Positions 16,944 through 24,312 of a stretch of DNA of 24,772 nt are shown here, piece by piece (position 1 is the first letter of the stretch; each line of letters begins with the position of its first letter). Source of the DNA: a virus; the IMG/VR virus record IMGVR_UViG_3300022752_000374, positions 1 to 24,772 of that record. One strand, given 5' to 3'. Below the pieces are notes generated by a model. It searched no databases and was not told the origin of the DNA. It saw nothing but the letters and a program-made list of their open reading frames with translations. Both the position numbers and the translations under genes were made by a program.

Positions 16944-18470
16944 ATGCCTTCTTACGTTCATCTCGCATATCGGCGTAATGCACGTGCGGCGGCAAAAAGT
17001 CATCAAATCAAAGAGCCTAAAAATTACGAGCAGGCAAAACTTGCACGTGAAGACTTTGGTTATTTTTGTGATTATGTAGCCGATAAACCTCCGGCTGCCC
17101 ATCATAAAGAATGGCATCGTCACTTTGTTACGGGTGAAGACAGTAACTGTTTGATTAAAATTGCTGGTCCAAATGTTGATCTATTGGCTCCCCGTGGATC
17201 AGCAAAAAGTACAGTTCTTGGACTTTTAACTGCATGGGCAATCGGCATTCATACAGAAGCCAAACTTCCCTTGCAGATTCTCTATCTTTCTTATACCGTT
17301 GATATTGCACGTTCTAAATCTGCAACCATCAAACGAATCATTGAAAGTAAACGATATCAAGAAGTTTTCCCCAAGGTACGACTTCTCAAGAATGTAACAA
17401 GCAATGAGTATTGGTCAATTGATCATAAATTTGCTGGCATTGATGTAACAGGTGATGAACAGTTTACGCTTTGCGCCGCAGGCCTTAAAGGTTCAGTGAC
17501 TTCTAAGCGTTCACATTTAGTAATGATTGATGACGCTATTAAGTCTGCTGCTGATATTGGTAATCCTGACATTCGTAAGACAATGCAGGATAACTGGAAC
17601 GCAGTGATCGCACCAACTATGTTTGAAGGCGCTAGAGCCATTTGTCTTGGTACTCGTTTTAGGCACGATGACATTCATGCCACTACCTTTAACGAACAAA
17701 ATAACTGGACGCAAATTGTTTTGTCAGCAATTCAAAACAATCCCAAAACAGGTGAAGAGGAATCCTACTGGCCTGATATGTGGTCGCTAGAGTACCTAAA
17801 AGAAAAGAAACGGCAAGCTCCAATTGCTTTTTCTTTTCAATACATGAATCAAATTGTCAGGCAAAATGAACTCTCATTGGCGCCAGAACTTATTGTTAAG
17901 GCAGAAATTGCAACAGAGTTTGATGCCCTGGGCGTTGGTGTTGACTTGTCTGCAGGTGTTAAAGAGAAGAATGATTACACGGTGTTTGTATTGGGTGGTC
18001 GGATTGAGGATCGTATCCATATTATTGATTATCGACGTATTCGCGTCATGGGGAACTTGGAAAAACTAGATGCCCTTAAAGAATTACTTAATGATTGGTC
18101 TATTATCGGACAAGATGAAAATAAAAATTATTTCCCTACTTATTCAACATGTGATGTTTGGTCAGAAGCTGTCCAATACCAGGCTTCTCTCGAAGCTGAC
18201 TTTAAGCGGGTCTGCTTGAATGACGAAGGTCTCTACAATTTGATTTGGCATCCAGTCAAAGGATTCCGTGCAGATAAGCTCGCACGGTTCAGGGGAATTA
18301 TTGGTATGTTTGAAGATCGAAAAATTATCTTTAATCGTTTCCGGAATTTCACAAATCTCTTCGAGGAACTCACAAATTTCGGTGTAAGTGGCCATGATGA
18401 CTGTGTCGATGCTCTCGTTTGGTTAGTTACTGGATTAGCAAGGAAAGGCAATTTACATCTTGATTACTGA
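16944..18470 (+). CDS. terL: Terminase large subunit (packaging ATPase-nuclease)
   Basis: 508 aa, usual length for TerL. The N-terminal ATPase has a Walker A APRGSAKST (residues 82-90), Walker B LVMIDDA (192-198) and the coupling motif GTRF (236-239). The C-terminal RNase H-like nuclease has acidic residues in GVDLSAG (D334), NDYTVFV (D344), CDVW (D404) and GHDDCVDA (D485, D486, D489). It pumps DNA into the prohead through the portal and cuts the concatemer. Start codon directly follows a hairpin with no Shine-Dalgarno. The 3' end overlaps the next gene by 11 nt. Confidence 0.97.
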   Translation: MPSYVHLAYRRNARAAAKSHQIKEPKNYEQAKLAREDFGYFCDYVADKPPAAHHKEWHRHFVTGEDSNCLIKIAGPNVDLLAPRGSAKSTVLGLLTAWAIGIHTEAKLPLQILYLSYTVDIARSKSATIKRIIESKRYQEVFPKVRLLKNVTSNEYWSIDHKFAGIDVTGDEQFTLCAAGLKGSVTSKRSHLVMIDDAIKSAADIGNPDIRKTMQDNWNAVIAPTMFEGARAICLGTRFRHDDIHATTFNEQNNWTQIVLSAIQNNPKTGEEESYWPDMWSLEYLKEKKRQAPIAFSFQYMNQIVRQNELSLAPELIVKAEIATEFDALGVGVDLSAGVKEKNDYTVFVLGGRIEDRIHIIDYRRIRVMGNLEKLDALKELLNDWSIIGQDENKNYFPTYSTCDVWSEAVQYQASLEADFKRVCLNDEGLYNLIWHPVKGFRADKLARFRGIIGMFEDRKIIFNRFRNFTNLFEELTNFGVSGHDDCVDALVWLVTGLARKGNLHLDY

Positions 18471-21745: not shown

Positions 21746-22169
21746 TTACGCTCTTCAACTTGAAGGGATGCTGGATAGTGCAGTGGCCTGGGGCGCCCAA
21801 GCCAATGATGTGATGGGTCGTTTTGCCAACTTCTCGGTCAATGAGCACCAAGAAAACCTGGCTTATAACGAAATTCTGACCAACCCCGATGTTCTTAGCG
21901 ATTACACGCTGAAATTCTTTGGTCCTGAAGGTCCGTACCCTGTGTACGAAAACGAAGCTGAGCTTAGCTCCCGTGGTTATCGCACTCAACCCATCGGCGG
22001 TGGTATTGCCGAGCTCCCTGCTCCCCCCAACGCCGCTGGCCCCCAGCAACCAGAAAACTTCTGGGGTAACTTTAGCGAAGTGATGAATCGTGATCCCCAG
22101 AACGCCTGGCGTGTCCTGAATCAAGCTCAACCCGGAACCGTTGCAAACAAACTGTTTGTGATGGAGTAA
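21147..22169 (+). CDS. Scaffold-type / capsid assembly protein, 340 aa
   Basis: A strong AAAGGAG lies seven bases before the ATG. The N-terminal 200 residues are Pro/Ala/Gln/Tyr-rich and disordered (PVAAPAPSYQQAAPVAYQ). The C-terminal part is helical (QEVDRAIADYYHLSNETRQV, LNNYALQLEGMLDSAVAWGA) and ends VANKLFVME. Position between portal and major capsid, disordered N-terminus and helical, charged C-terminus fit an internal scaffold that directs coat assembly. The reading frame is +1 relative to the portal, whose tail overlaps it by 599 nt. C-ending codons, as in the coat gene. Followed by a terminator. Confidence 0.8.
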   Translation: MQDATVQSTPQTSQAPSVAPSSYVMAAPAPVAAPAPSYQQAAPVAYQVGTSYPQAVPQATTSYQSAPTQYAPQSQPNYSVAAPAEAPATNPWESAFNKVVGLLSSPVQSPFQAQPSTTTPQYAPANFGTPSAQVTPQLGTPTSYPSPESYLNSSLISSTPLPAAEAQEVDRAIADYYHLSNETRQVFDAFGPEAPAILNNYALQLEGMLDSAVAWGAQANDVMGRFANFSVNEHQENLAYNEILTNPDVLSDYTLKFFGPEGPYPVYENEAELSSRGYRTQPIGGGIAELPAPPNAAGPQQPENFWGNFSEVMNRDPQNAWRVLNQAQPGTVANKLFVME

Positions 22170-22184
22170 TATCCAAACCTTAAG

Positions 22185-22215
22185 CCAGGTGGTATTTATT
22201 TACTACCTGGTTTTT
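22185..22215 (+). terminator. Rho-independent terminator after the scaffold gene
   Basis: Stem CCAGGTGGTA (22185-22194) with TACTACCTGG (22201-22210), one G-T pair, six-base loop, then TTTTT (22211-22215). Ends the portal/scaffold transcript 15 bp after the stop. Confidence 0.85.
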
Positions 22216-22223
22216 AGTATGTA

Positions 22224-22252
22224 TTCACACATAAATTATCAACTGCTAAAAT
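22224..22252 (+). promoter_or_regulatory. Sigma70-type promoter for the major capsid gene
   Basis: TTCACA (22224-22229), exactly 17 bp spacer, then TAAAAT (22247-22252) with an upstream TGC (extended -10). It follows the terminator at once, so the capsid gene is an independent unit. The -10 matches the late-gene box set. Confidence 0.65.
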
Positions 22253-22260
22253 TTTAAATA

Positions 22261-22282
22261 AGAAAGGACCTTGGTCCATTCT
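22261..22282. terminator. 22-nt hairpin in capsid leader, antisense terminator candidate
   Basis: AGAAAGGACC and GGTCCATTCT pair with one mismatch around TT. Read on the minus strand it is followed by TATTTAAAATTTT, so it can end the antisense HNH transcript. On the plus strand it lies in the 5' UTR of the capsid mRNA, where it may protect the end. Confidence 0.5.
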
Positions 22283-22322
22283 TTCACCCGAATAAAAACA
22301 AGACACTGGAGGATAAACCAAA

Positions 22323-24312
22323 GTGTTTATTGATAGCTAGTTCAGATCCTGGTAGGTGTGTCCTTTTAGGATTTGGTAAATAGCTCCGTGATTACAGTTA
22401 AATTTTTCGGCAATCTTTCTATATGAAAGTCCAGCCTCTTTCAAAGATTTAATTTGCATCACGTCTTCCGAAGAAAACTTTCTCAAAGACTTCTTCGGCT
22501 TTCCTTTACTGGCAAAACCATTATTTTGGTAGCAACCAGATTCCCAAGCCCTCGTTAAATTCTCTTGTTTGGTAACAATTTCTAGATTCTCAAGTTGATT
22601 ATTCCGTTTGTTTTTATCTAAGTGATTTACCTGAAGAGAAAAGTTATGACTGCCATGGGACCTTGGATCTAAACCAAGAAAGGCAATTGCCATTAACACG
22701 TGTAAATGAAAACGTTTCTTTCTTCCATTTACAAGAACTGAAACTCTGTCATATGCACTGGTCGAACTAATAGGAAGTTCTTCAAGTTCTTCTTGATCCT
22801 GTTCATTAAGTTTTTTCTTAAAAGCTCGACCGTCTTCTGTTAAGTAAAGGTTACCAAACCCAGGTACAAGTTTTGGTTCCATGTTGTTTATCAACATTTT
22901 TCCAAAGCATAGCATGCCTCAACTGAACGCTCAACGTTGTCACCTCACCGAGCAATCGATGAGTGCAAACCGGATGAATTCAGGGAAGCCCTAACGTAAA
23001 GCCGAGGGTAATCCTGAGCCAAGCCAATCAAGATCGTGATTGGAAGGTGCAGAGACTACTGGGGGTAACACGCACTTGTTACGTAATACCAGATTTAGCG
23101 TCCGGCATCCCACAGGGATGAAGAGATAGTCCACCCCTCTAAGAAACTAGAGACCAGGAGAACGATTTTCCAAAAATCTTGGGTGCGGAACTCTATCGTC
23201 CTCACCCCGCCTACATTGCCGAGATGGCTGTGGAGCCCGTGGTTGTCCACGACTTCACCCGTCAACCCGGTCAAACCGTGCAGCTCGACCGCTATAAGTT
23301 CTGGGGAACCCCTGGCACGAAGGATAGCCGCGAGCGTATTGCCGACCAAACCATTGGTACTGCTAACAGCCGCAACATCACCAAGGAGAAAGTCCTGGTG
23401 GTGCTTAAGGAATACACTGGTCCTGCCGATCCGGGCGATCCGACTCAGCCTTCTACCTTCAAGATTGCTCGTGAAACCCTGATTACCGCCCAGCGTCTGC
23501 TGCTGGACACCGGTAACCTGAACATGTTCCACCAGTCCATCGGCAGCCTCACCCTGCTGGATGACTACCGTCGTTGGCGCGACCGCGTCTTCATTGACGA
23601 ACTGTCCAAAGCTGAAGCCAACGGCCAAGCTTCTACCACCCAGGGCGGTTACTACTTCGCTGGTAACAAAGCCAAAGATTCCTCTGGCCGTGTTTCCTAC
23701 ACTGCCACTGAATATGGCGCGCAAGTTCAACAGTTCCAAGTCCGTACTGACTTGCTGAACGTTGTTAAAGACCTGCGTAAGCGCAACGTGCCGACCTATT
23801 CCGATGGTCTGTATCGTTGCATCTGCGATCCTACTTTCATGCTGCACCTGCGGCGTGATCCTGACTTCCGTGAGATCGCTCGTTACGCTGGCAATCCTGG
23901 TCAGGGGATGTACATGGGCAACCCTGCGATGCCCAACAACTCCAGCTTCTACATGGGTCCCCAAGCTGGCCAAGGTTATTTCCTGGCTGGTGAACCTGTC
24001 ATGCCGACCGGCGTGCAGTTTGAAGGTGTGAAGTTCTTCGAGTCGACCAACTTCCCCACCAAGACCCTGAGTGCATCTTTCGACGGTGGTTCCAACTATT
24101 CGACTCAAGAAGTTGCCCAAGGTTACTTCTTTGGTCCTCAAGCCATCGGCGTCGGTATTGGTGGTCCTAACGCCCAAGTGCTGATCAACAATAACGATGA
24201 CTTCAGCCGCTTTATCATTCTGATTTGGCAGCTGTACGCTGGTTTTGAAATCCTGAACAAAGATTTCGTCACCACCGGTTTCAGCTTCATTCAAGACGAC
24301 GGTATCGTTTGA
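22323..24312 (+). CDS. Major capsid protein, split by a group I intron
   Basis: Proposed exon 1 is GTG TTT ATT GAT (22323-22334), preceded by GGAGG ten bases upstream; exon 2 is 23161-24312. Joined product is about 387 aa and begins MFIDNDFPKILGAELYRPHP. The protein has GRYKFW-type LDRYKFWGTPGTKDSRERIA, LLDDYRRWRDRVFIDELSK, and coat-like ending LIWQLYAGFEILNKDFVTTG. It is the abundant head shell protein by position (after scaffold) and composition; codons are strongly C-ending. Without splicing, the frame ends after five codons (MFIDS, TAG). The exact splice bases are inferred. Confidence 0.85.
22337..22882 (-). CDS. HNH homing endonuclease, antisense inside the intron
   Basis: Start taken as the ATG at 22880-22882 (MEPKLVPGFGNLYLTEDGRA), with alternative in-frame ATGs at 22897 and 22915; about 181 aa. 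The nuclease core is FHLHVLMAIAFLG (His59, His61), VNHLDKNKRNN (Asn86, His87, Asp89) and LENLEIVTKQENLTRAW, the HNH_3 arrangement. The C-terminal helix-turn-helix is SSEDVMQIKSLKEAGLSYRK with IYQILKGHTYQDL (about 138-180). It makes a cut at intronless alleles so that the intron copies in. Stop is three bases inside the intron. Opposite orientation to its host gene is unusual. Confidence 0.93.
   Translation of the reverse strand: MEPKLVPGFGNLYLTEDGRAFKKKLNEQDQEELEELPISSTSAYDRVSVLVNGRKKRFHLHVLMAIAFLGLDPRSHGSHNFSLQVNHLDKNKRNNQLENLEIVTKQENLTRAWESGCYQNNGFASKGKPKKSLRKFSSEDVMQIKSLKEAGLSYRKIAEKFNCNHGAIYQILKGHTYQDLN
22906..22934 (-). promoter_or_regulatory. Candidate promoter of the antisense HNH gene
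   Basis: On the minus strand TTGAGC (22929-22934), a 17-bp spacer, then TATGCT (22906-22911) with an upstream TGC. It overlaps the candidate P2 strand CTGAAC (22923-22928). Only fair matches to consensus, but spacing and place are right. Confidence 0.4.

Follow-up and report, generated by a model that had tools for sequence, protein, structure and literature searches.

The locus studied here raises the question of whether the major capsid gene of a phage is split by an intron that carries an oppositely oriented endonuclease gene and, if so, how such an arrangement would be maintained and spread. The window, by which we mean the whole 24,772-base virus record analyzed (IMG/VR IMGVR_UViG_3300022752_000374), belongs to a phage close to Synechococcus phage S-EIV1, with a capsid protein identity of 86.5%. 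The best 80 of at least 600 IMG/VR stretches matching the same capsid gene were taken for comparison, which together with S-EIV1 make 81 related loci. Since contigs recur among the loci, and a single one may carry several identifiers (e.g., L013, L113, and L228), the figures for the endonuclease gene and the intron are counts of distinct sequences. The reading that we favor, at a probability of about 0.92, is that of a mobile IA-like group I intron in a late structural gene, which would self-splice, home by means of its antisense HNH endonuclease, and copy its flank along as proposed below.

Regarding the capsid gene, its spliced reading would start with exon 1 at 22323–22334 (plus strand; GTG TTT ATT GAT, that is, MFID), preceded by a likely ribosome-binding site, GGAGG at 22309–22313 (GGAGGAT in relatives), and would continue in exon 2 at 23161–24312, giving a protein of 387 aa that begins MFIDNDFPKILGAELYR. 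The frame 23179–24312 matches the major head protein family PHROG 1357 (E 1.1e-15), and the unspliced reading gives VFIDS followed by a stop. In 59 of the 80 loci and in S-EIV1, exon 1 is joined straight to exon 2 with few substitutions near the GAT|AAC junction, and intronless alleles such as L003 read GTGTTTATTGAT/AACGATTTTCC uninterrupted; the remaining 21 loci have an insert exactly at this junction. Compared with the intronless alleles, the insert of the window is exactly 22335–23160, 826 nt, the size that the sequence-only reading of this DNA had predicted, and, also as proposed there, it ends at a G (23160) directly followed by the coat frame (from 23161). From sequence alone this border could slide by one A, being fixed by the group I rule that a U ends the exon and a G ends the intron. 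The claim that the gene is split by an intron is thus borne out by the alignment to intronless coat genes, where 60 of the 81 related loci are continuous at the site, and the match to the group I model RF00028, the conservation of the helices, and the protein families agree with it.

A different explanation would be that an ordinary intergenic HNH gene lies upstream of a capsid gene starting at TTG 23179, the group I match being a relic that does not splice. Although the 23179 frame begins with a possible start codon and an AGGAG is present at 23156–23160, this motif ends 18 nt ahead of the TTG. Moreover, (N/T)DFPKILGAELYRP is found in 81 of 81 related loci, across intron-bearing and intronless alleles, and all 60 intronless relatives have an MFID-like exon with GGAGGAT just upstream, at most 25 nt away; a coat protein beginning at 23179 and lacking the upstream exon, which would have spoken against the intron, was not found among them. 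Together with the splice-site pairings and the core helices, which are kept with compensatory changes, this makes the intergenic arrangement extremely improbable.

As a separate observation on this gene, the annotation of the S-EIV1 record (KJ410740.1, 60784–62010) leaves out the greater part of the capsid gene: a minus-strand ORF is given at 60784–61545, and the capsid frame is represented by its 3' part alone (61540–62010), while the capsid match covers 60889–62007. The window has a similarly placed open frame of 399 aa opposite the capsid exon (23095–24294, minus strand), which is possibly a by-product of codon use; its S-EIV1 counterpart is listed as a gene.

With respect to the ribozyme, a covariance search with RF00028, the check suggested by the sequence-only reading, gave a match at 22910–23153 (plus strand) of 92.5 bits (E 7.4e-23) against a gathering score of 50. 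Introns were then collected via patterns covering the splice sites, and 65 distinct reduced introns out of 180 sequences (window and loci, among which contigs recur) entered a helix alignment. Seventeen of 36 candidate stretches corresponded to the same intron, and the other 19, without core or capsid gene, were dropped, as were the apparent introns in L060 and L062, which are chance matches of the 3' pattern 5.3 kb off. The fold drawn earlier by eye, P3 to P9 with the P7 pairing GACTA/TAGTC and P7.1, is kept in the aligned relatives, and P1, P10, P7.2, and an extension of P1 are added to it. The placement of P1 by Rfam, from 22910 on, was discarded, the true 5' strand being about 570 nt further upstream: UGAU|AGC at 22331–22337 pairs with 22936–22942, leaving a U.G at the splice site. 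The internal guide sequence, CGUUGUCA at 22935–22942, provides GUUGUCA for P1 and CGUU (22935–22938) for P10, which pairs with AACG at 23161–23164. The P1 extension is formed by GUUCAG (22340–22345), complementary to the two final HNH codons (L-N), and CUGAAC (22923–22928), and the HNH gene occupies its loop. The remaining elements are the P2 hairpin with a GCAA loop (22944–22963), P3 (22970–22976 with 23099–23105), P4 (22979–22984 with 23013–23018), P5 (22988–22992 with 23005–23009), the P6a hairpin (23024–23043), P7 (GACUA at 23054–23058 with 23127–23131), P7.1 and P7.2 (23059–23092), the P8 hairpin (23106–23120), and the P9 hairpin with GAAA in its loop (23137–23152).

Across the 65 distinct introns, P1, its extension, P10, P3, P4, P6, P6a, P7, and P9 have standard pairs in every cell, with the other helices close to this (P2, 475/520; P5, 319/325; P7.1, 254/258; P7.2, 320/325; P8, 386/390). 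The U.G at the cleavage site is present in 65 of 65 introns and the P10 pairs in 260 of 260 cells; for P10 and the P1 helices, part of this invariance follows from the collection patterns, which include the splice sites. Compensatory changes, with both sides altered and the pair kept, occur in P2, P6, P7 (one pair, in 8 of the 65 sequences), P7.2, and P9. Also, outside the pattern-collected set, the intron of L279, which lacks the homing endonuclease gene (HEG), carries C-G in place of a U-A pair of the P1 extension. P7.1 and P7.2, a feature of subgroup IA, are present in the intron and in its aligned relatives. Based on this comparison, the element is a group I intron, possibly of subgroup IA, with splicing as a prediction. 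In the 60 intronless alleles the junction is followed by AACG (46), AATG (8), or ACCG (6); one P10 pair would be lost with ACCG, and one would be weakened to U.G with AATG. Alleles of these two types may be resistant to the intron or to its endonuclease.

The HNH gene is located in the 5' part of the intron, on the minus strand, at 22337–22882 (181 aa), antisense to the capsid gene as had been claimed. Its product matches HNH_3 (PF13392, E 9.7e-9) and, under the Pfam cut-off, a helix-turn-helix; a longer frame reaching 22915 matches PHROG 59 (E 1.1e-28). Residues H61, H87, N94, N95, and N99 are invariant among 11 aligned relatives. A profile search matched one solved protein, I-HmuI (1u3e_M, 5e-8), which also ranked first when the AlphaFold2 model (mean pLDDT 82.7, pTM 0.63) was compared by Foldseek (E 3.5e-7, TM about 0.5, rmsd 9.1). 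On these matches, the antisense ORF is a predicted I-HmuI-like HNH endonuclease. The most likely start is 22882, given that all 57 distinct sequences have ATG or GTG at this position (compared by eye); the alternatives 22915 and 22897 were rejected, only 22882 retaining a start codon in all 57. The stop codon coincides with intron positions 3 to 5, within a CTAG palindrome (22337–22340) that holds both the stop of the unspliced capsid reading (22338–22340) and that of the HNH frame (22339–22337, minus strand). Intron position 5 is A in the window and in all 73 distinct HEG-bearing introns from relatives, against G in three of eight distinct HEG-less introns (Fisher p 0.0007, relatedness ignored). 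In none of the 170 loci holding both genes, among which contigs recur, are the HNH and capsid genes on the same strand.

Sequence variation in the HNH gene bears on whether it is more than a passenger. The frame is open and TAG-terminated in 74 of 74 distinct HEG-bearing introns, its variable columns are distributed 58/21/126 over the codon positions of 181 codons, and the median dN/dS is 0.098 over 2595 usable pairs with none above 1 (106 of the 2701 pairs were left out, their synonymous divergence being too small or saturated). From this pattern of substitution, the antisense HNH gene is maintained by selection.

The distribution of the intron was compared with the history of the capsid gene. 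In a capsid tree of 82 rows (60 empty, 22 with intron), intron presence needs at least 13 changes; this is a quick tree with weak branches, built with the 23179 frame shortened by its initial 150 nt. Three of its intron rows (L029, L034, and L057) are truncated where their contigs end, and L052 is labelled HEG-bearing with only 229 nt of its intron covered. A closer example is given by L013, which has the intron, and L014, which is empty. The two are nearly alike far upstream (98.6% identity) and downstream (99.1%), but they differ over the approximately 570 nt preceding the intron, and L014 lacks the intron itself. This 5' flank of L013 and its intron are 99.7 to 100% identical to those of L227, with 88% identity in the 1.1 kb of 3' flank. 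Mismatches in exon 2 occur at 14 and 17 nt and the next at 185, which suggests that at most some 20 nt of the 3' flank were carried along. For L013 alone an assembly chimera is possible because it is a 4.9-kb metagenome contig.

Pairs of alleles were compared as well. In the 200 nt before the site, 27 carrier-empty pairs with 3' parts at least 96.5% identical have a median identity of 69% (62–87), compared with 96% (74–100) for 13 empty-empty pairs and 96% (71–100) for 45 carrier-carrier pairs, the pairs sharing members. In two of 19 listed carrier pairs (L143-L214 and L001-L201), the low 3' identity arises only from a second intron shifting the comparison. The exchanged 5' flank of the carriers is what homing would leave, that is, a co-conversion signature read from natural alleles. 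In this regard, exon I is likewise the favored side in the homing of T4 td, according to the available part of PMC2988022.

These data can be set against the possibility that the intron is real and spliced, with the antisense HNH gene a chance passenger, barely expressed, and ordinary phage recombination as the means of spread. HEG-less introns at the same site would fit, and so would the absence of a convincing HNH promoter in the two scans described below. In addition, some empty-empty pairs fall to 74–76% in the 5' flank, so intron-free recombination, exchanging this flank between empty alleles, happens there too. However, decay would be expected of a silent gene, and the 74 intact frames and the low dN/dS described above are contrary to this; moreover, the loss of 5' flank identity is far greater in carrier-empty than in control pairs. 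We therefore regard the passenger explanation as very unlikely. The comparison of alleles establishes the intron, its borders, the P1/P10 guide pairing, the selected antisense HNH gene, and natural exchange together with the 5' flank, as far as these can be read from DNA.

For the mobile intron that we favor, the capsid pre-mRNA would self-splice, and on unspliced RNA the ribosomes would halt at codon 6 (UAG). The HNH protein would be made from a minus-strand transcript at some stage of infection and would cut or nick the intronless capsid gene of a co-infecting relative at or near GAT|AACG, after which repair would transfer the intron, along with as much as about 0.6 kb of 5' flank, to the empty allele. 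The HNH gene is likely to have been inserted into the P1 loop in reverse, as an element of its own, and would since have been deleted more than once, giving introns of 256–325 nt. Eight distinct full HEG-less forms of 271–325 nt are present, together with further forms, the shortest being those of L278 (257 nt) and L279 (256 nt). Remnants of the HNH gene are kept in L154, from both of its ends, and in L138, from the C-terminal end; none were seen in the introns of L278 and L279. The same site thus occurs in three states among these phages: empty, with a full intron, and with a stripped one.

Concerning the expression of the HNH gene, a consensus scan of 22160–23500 gave three promoter-like sites, none of them upstream of HNH, and on the minus strand even the best sites do not outscore the plus-strand control. 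A weak sigma-70-like candidate, TTGAGC-17-TATGCT at 22906–22934 (minus strand, 8 of 12 matches), was rejected as the HNH promoter, since it is no better than the opposite-strand control and is absent from the L104 group. In the ORF layout of the window, the left end to about 6121 lies on the minus strand and the remainder on the plus strand, and transcription seems to follow this division; in S-EIV1, the primase, DNA polymerase, and ssDNA-binding genes are on the minus strand, with terminase and capsid on the plus strand. The direction of the HNH gene is opposite to that of the late operon, and the scan of 22160–23500 gave no terminator-like site, so the HNH mRNA may run past the 5' splice site and over the ribosome-binding site of the capsid gene. 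It could then be asked whether the antisense orientation is itself functional, the HNH message doubling as an antisense regulator of the coat gene. If so, it would hold down capsid splicing and translation until late transcription overwhelms it, and this role would account for the repeated occurrence of antisense endonucleases at phage capsid genes (the S-EIV1-like family, LittleE, and T4 segD). A general rule of this kind is disfavored by two introns with sense LAGLIDADG genes in the capsid gene of relatives, and for the same reason the idea that highly expressed capsid genes force endonucleases into antisense was discarded. We consider the regulatory role unlikely.

The two sense introns are located further into the capsid gene. 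One, of about 1 kb, follows residue about 80 in L138, L169, L186, and L224, and bears a LAGLIDADG_2 gene (6.5e-16 in L169:1407-2168, with similar ORFs in the other three); its RF00028 score in L169 is 37.6 bits, below gathering. In L138 and L169 it occurs together with the HEG-less first intron. The other is placed around residue 38 in L201, L216, L278, and L279, with LAGLIDADG_2 on the capsid strand (6.4e-22 in L201:1272-1964, and a similar ORF in L216) and 39.4 bits in L201, again below gathering; for L278 and L279 it is seen only as a break of the capsid frame at residue 38/39. A further insertion of another kind is found in the S-EIV1 terminase (KJ410740.1 54080–56620; L303:4080-6620), where an in-frame insert of about 330 aa matches an intein splicing domain (PF14890, 1.4e-11) and is unnamed in the feature table; the terminase of the window (16944–18470) is without it.

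The antisense layout is not new because nuclear rDNA introns and the capsid intron of mycobacteriophage LittleE have it, at least as described in the accessible parts of the reports. In LittleE, the capsid gene has an 819-bp insertion with a leftward endonuclease gene (gene 14), and splicing was demonstrated by RT-PCR and N-terminal sequencing (PMC3706429). This locus, gp13/gp14 (JF937101), resembles that of the window in having a major capsid gene split by an intron of about 820 bp, most likely group I, with an opposite-strand endonuclease gene. The LittleE core scores 30.7 bits against RF00028 (E 1.9e-5), below gathering. However, its endonuclease gene is 3' of the core (core 559–762, gene 765–1298 of L424) and matches LAGLIDADG_3, whereas that of the window is 5' of the core, in the P1 loop, and belongs to HNH_3. 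A direct comparison found no similarity between the two proteins, and common descent of the endonucleases was rejected on these three grounds. Being unrelated and differently placed, they suggest that in phage capsid genes the antisense layout probably originated on at least two occasions.

Antisense HEGs of nuclear rDNA group I introns include I-DirII of Didymium S956-2 and I-DsqI of D. squamulosum L2066, for which the available text of PMC9548176, PMC3679873, and PMC3073962 reports expression and, for I-DsqI, DNA cleavage. These differ from the window in being eukaryotic, with a His-Cys enzyme in P9 for L2066 and a proposed RNA polymerase II transcript. Phage IA2 introns with HNH genes, I-HmuI of SPO1 and I-PfoP3I of cyanophage Pf-WMP3, lie in DNA polymerase genes; in Pf-WMP3 the HNH gene is in P6a and the host gene is not the capsid, and the portion of PMC3428280 at hand describes no antisense orientation for either. 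T4 segD is, like the HNH gene, an antisense endonuclease gene beside the major capsid gene (23) for which an own promoter was not found, but it is a free-standing GIY-YIG gene and an intron is absent (PMC2988022, in part). In the available text of the review of bacterial group I introns PMC3984707, the terms "antisense," "opposite," and "orientation" are absent, and that of PMC8557907 mentions no intron in S-EIV1.

The view that phage intron endonucleases usually run with the host gene agrees with at least 120 other IMG/VR loci having a generic IA-like P7 signature (125 sites), where motif expressions applied from -1500 to +900 nt gave a sense ORF with an endonuclease motif, putatively intron-borne, at 17 loci and an antisense one at none. 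Also, no annotated minus-strand gene was present within 1 kb of a core-like match in 7 of 27 similar phage records, judged by annotation only. The rarity of the antisense case stands to this extent, but the LittleE capsid intron had already been published (PMC3706429, as far as the text is available). What is new here is the HNH family, the position in P1, and the record of natural alleles.

Finally, empty, full, and stripped alleles are available in many related environmental phage contigs, including an apparently near-fresh transfer, which makes the homing cycle testable in a lytic phage lineage. Testable too is how an antisense intron endonuclease would be expressed without harm to its host gene. 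Moreover, in these phages a single capsid gene is the target of at least three different introns.
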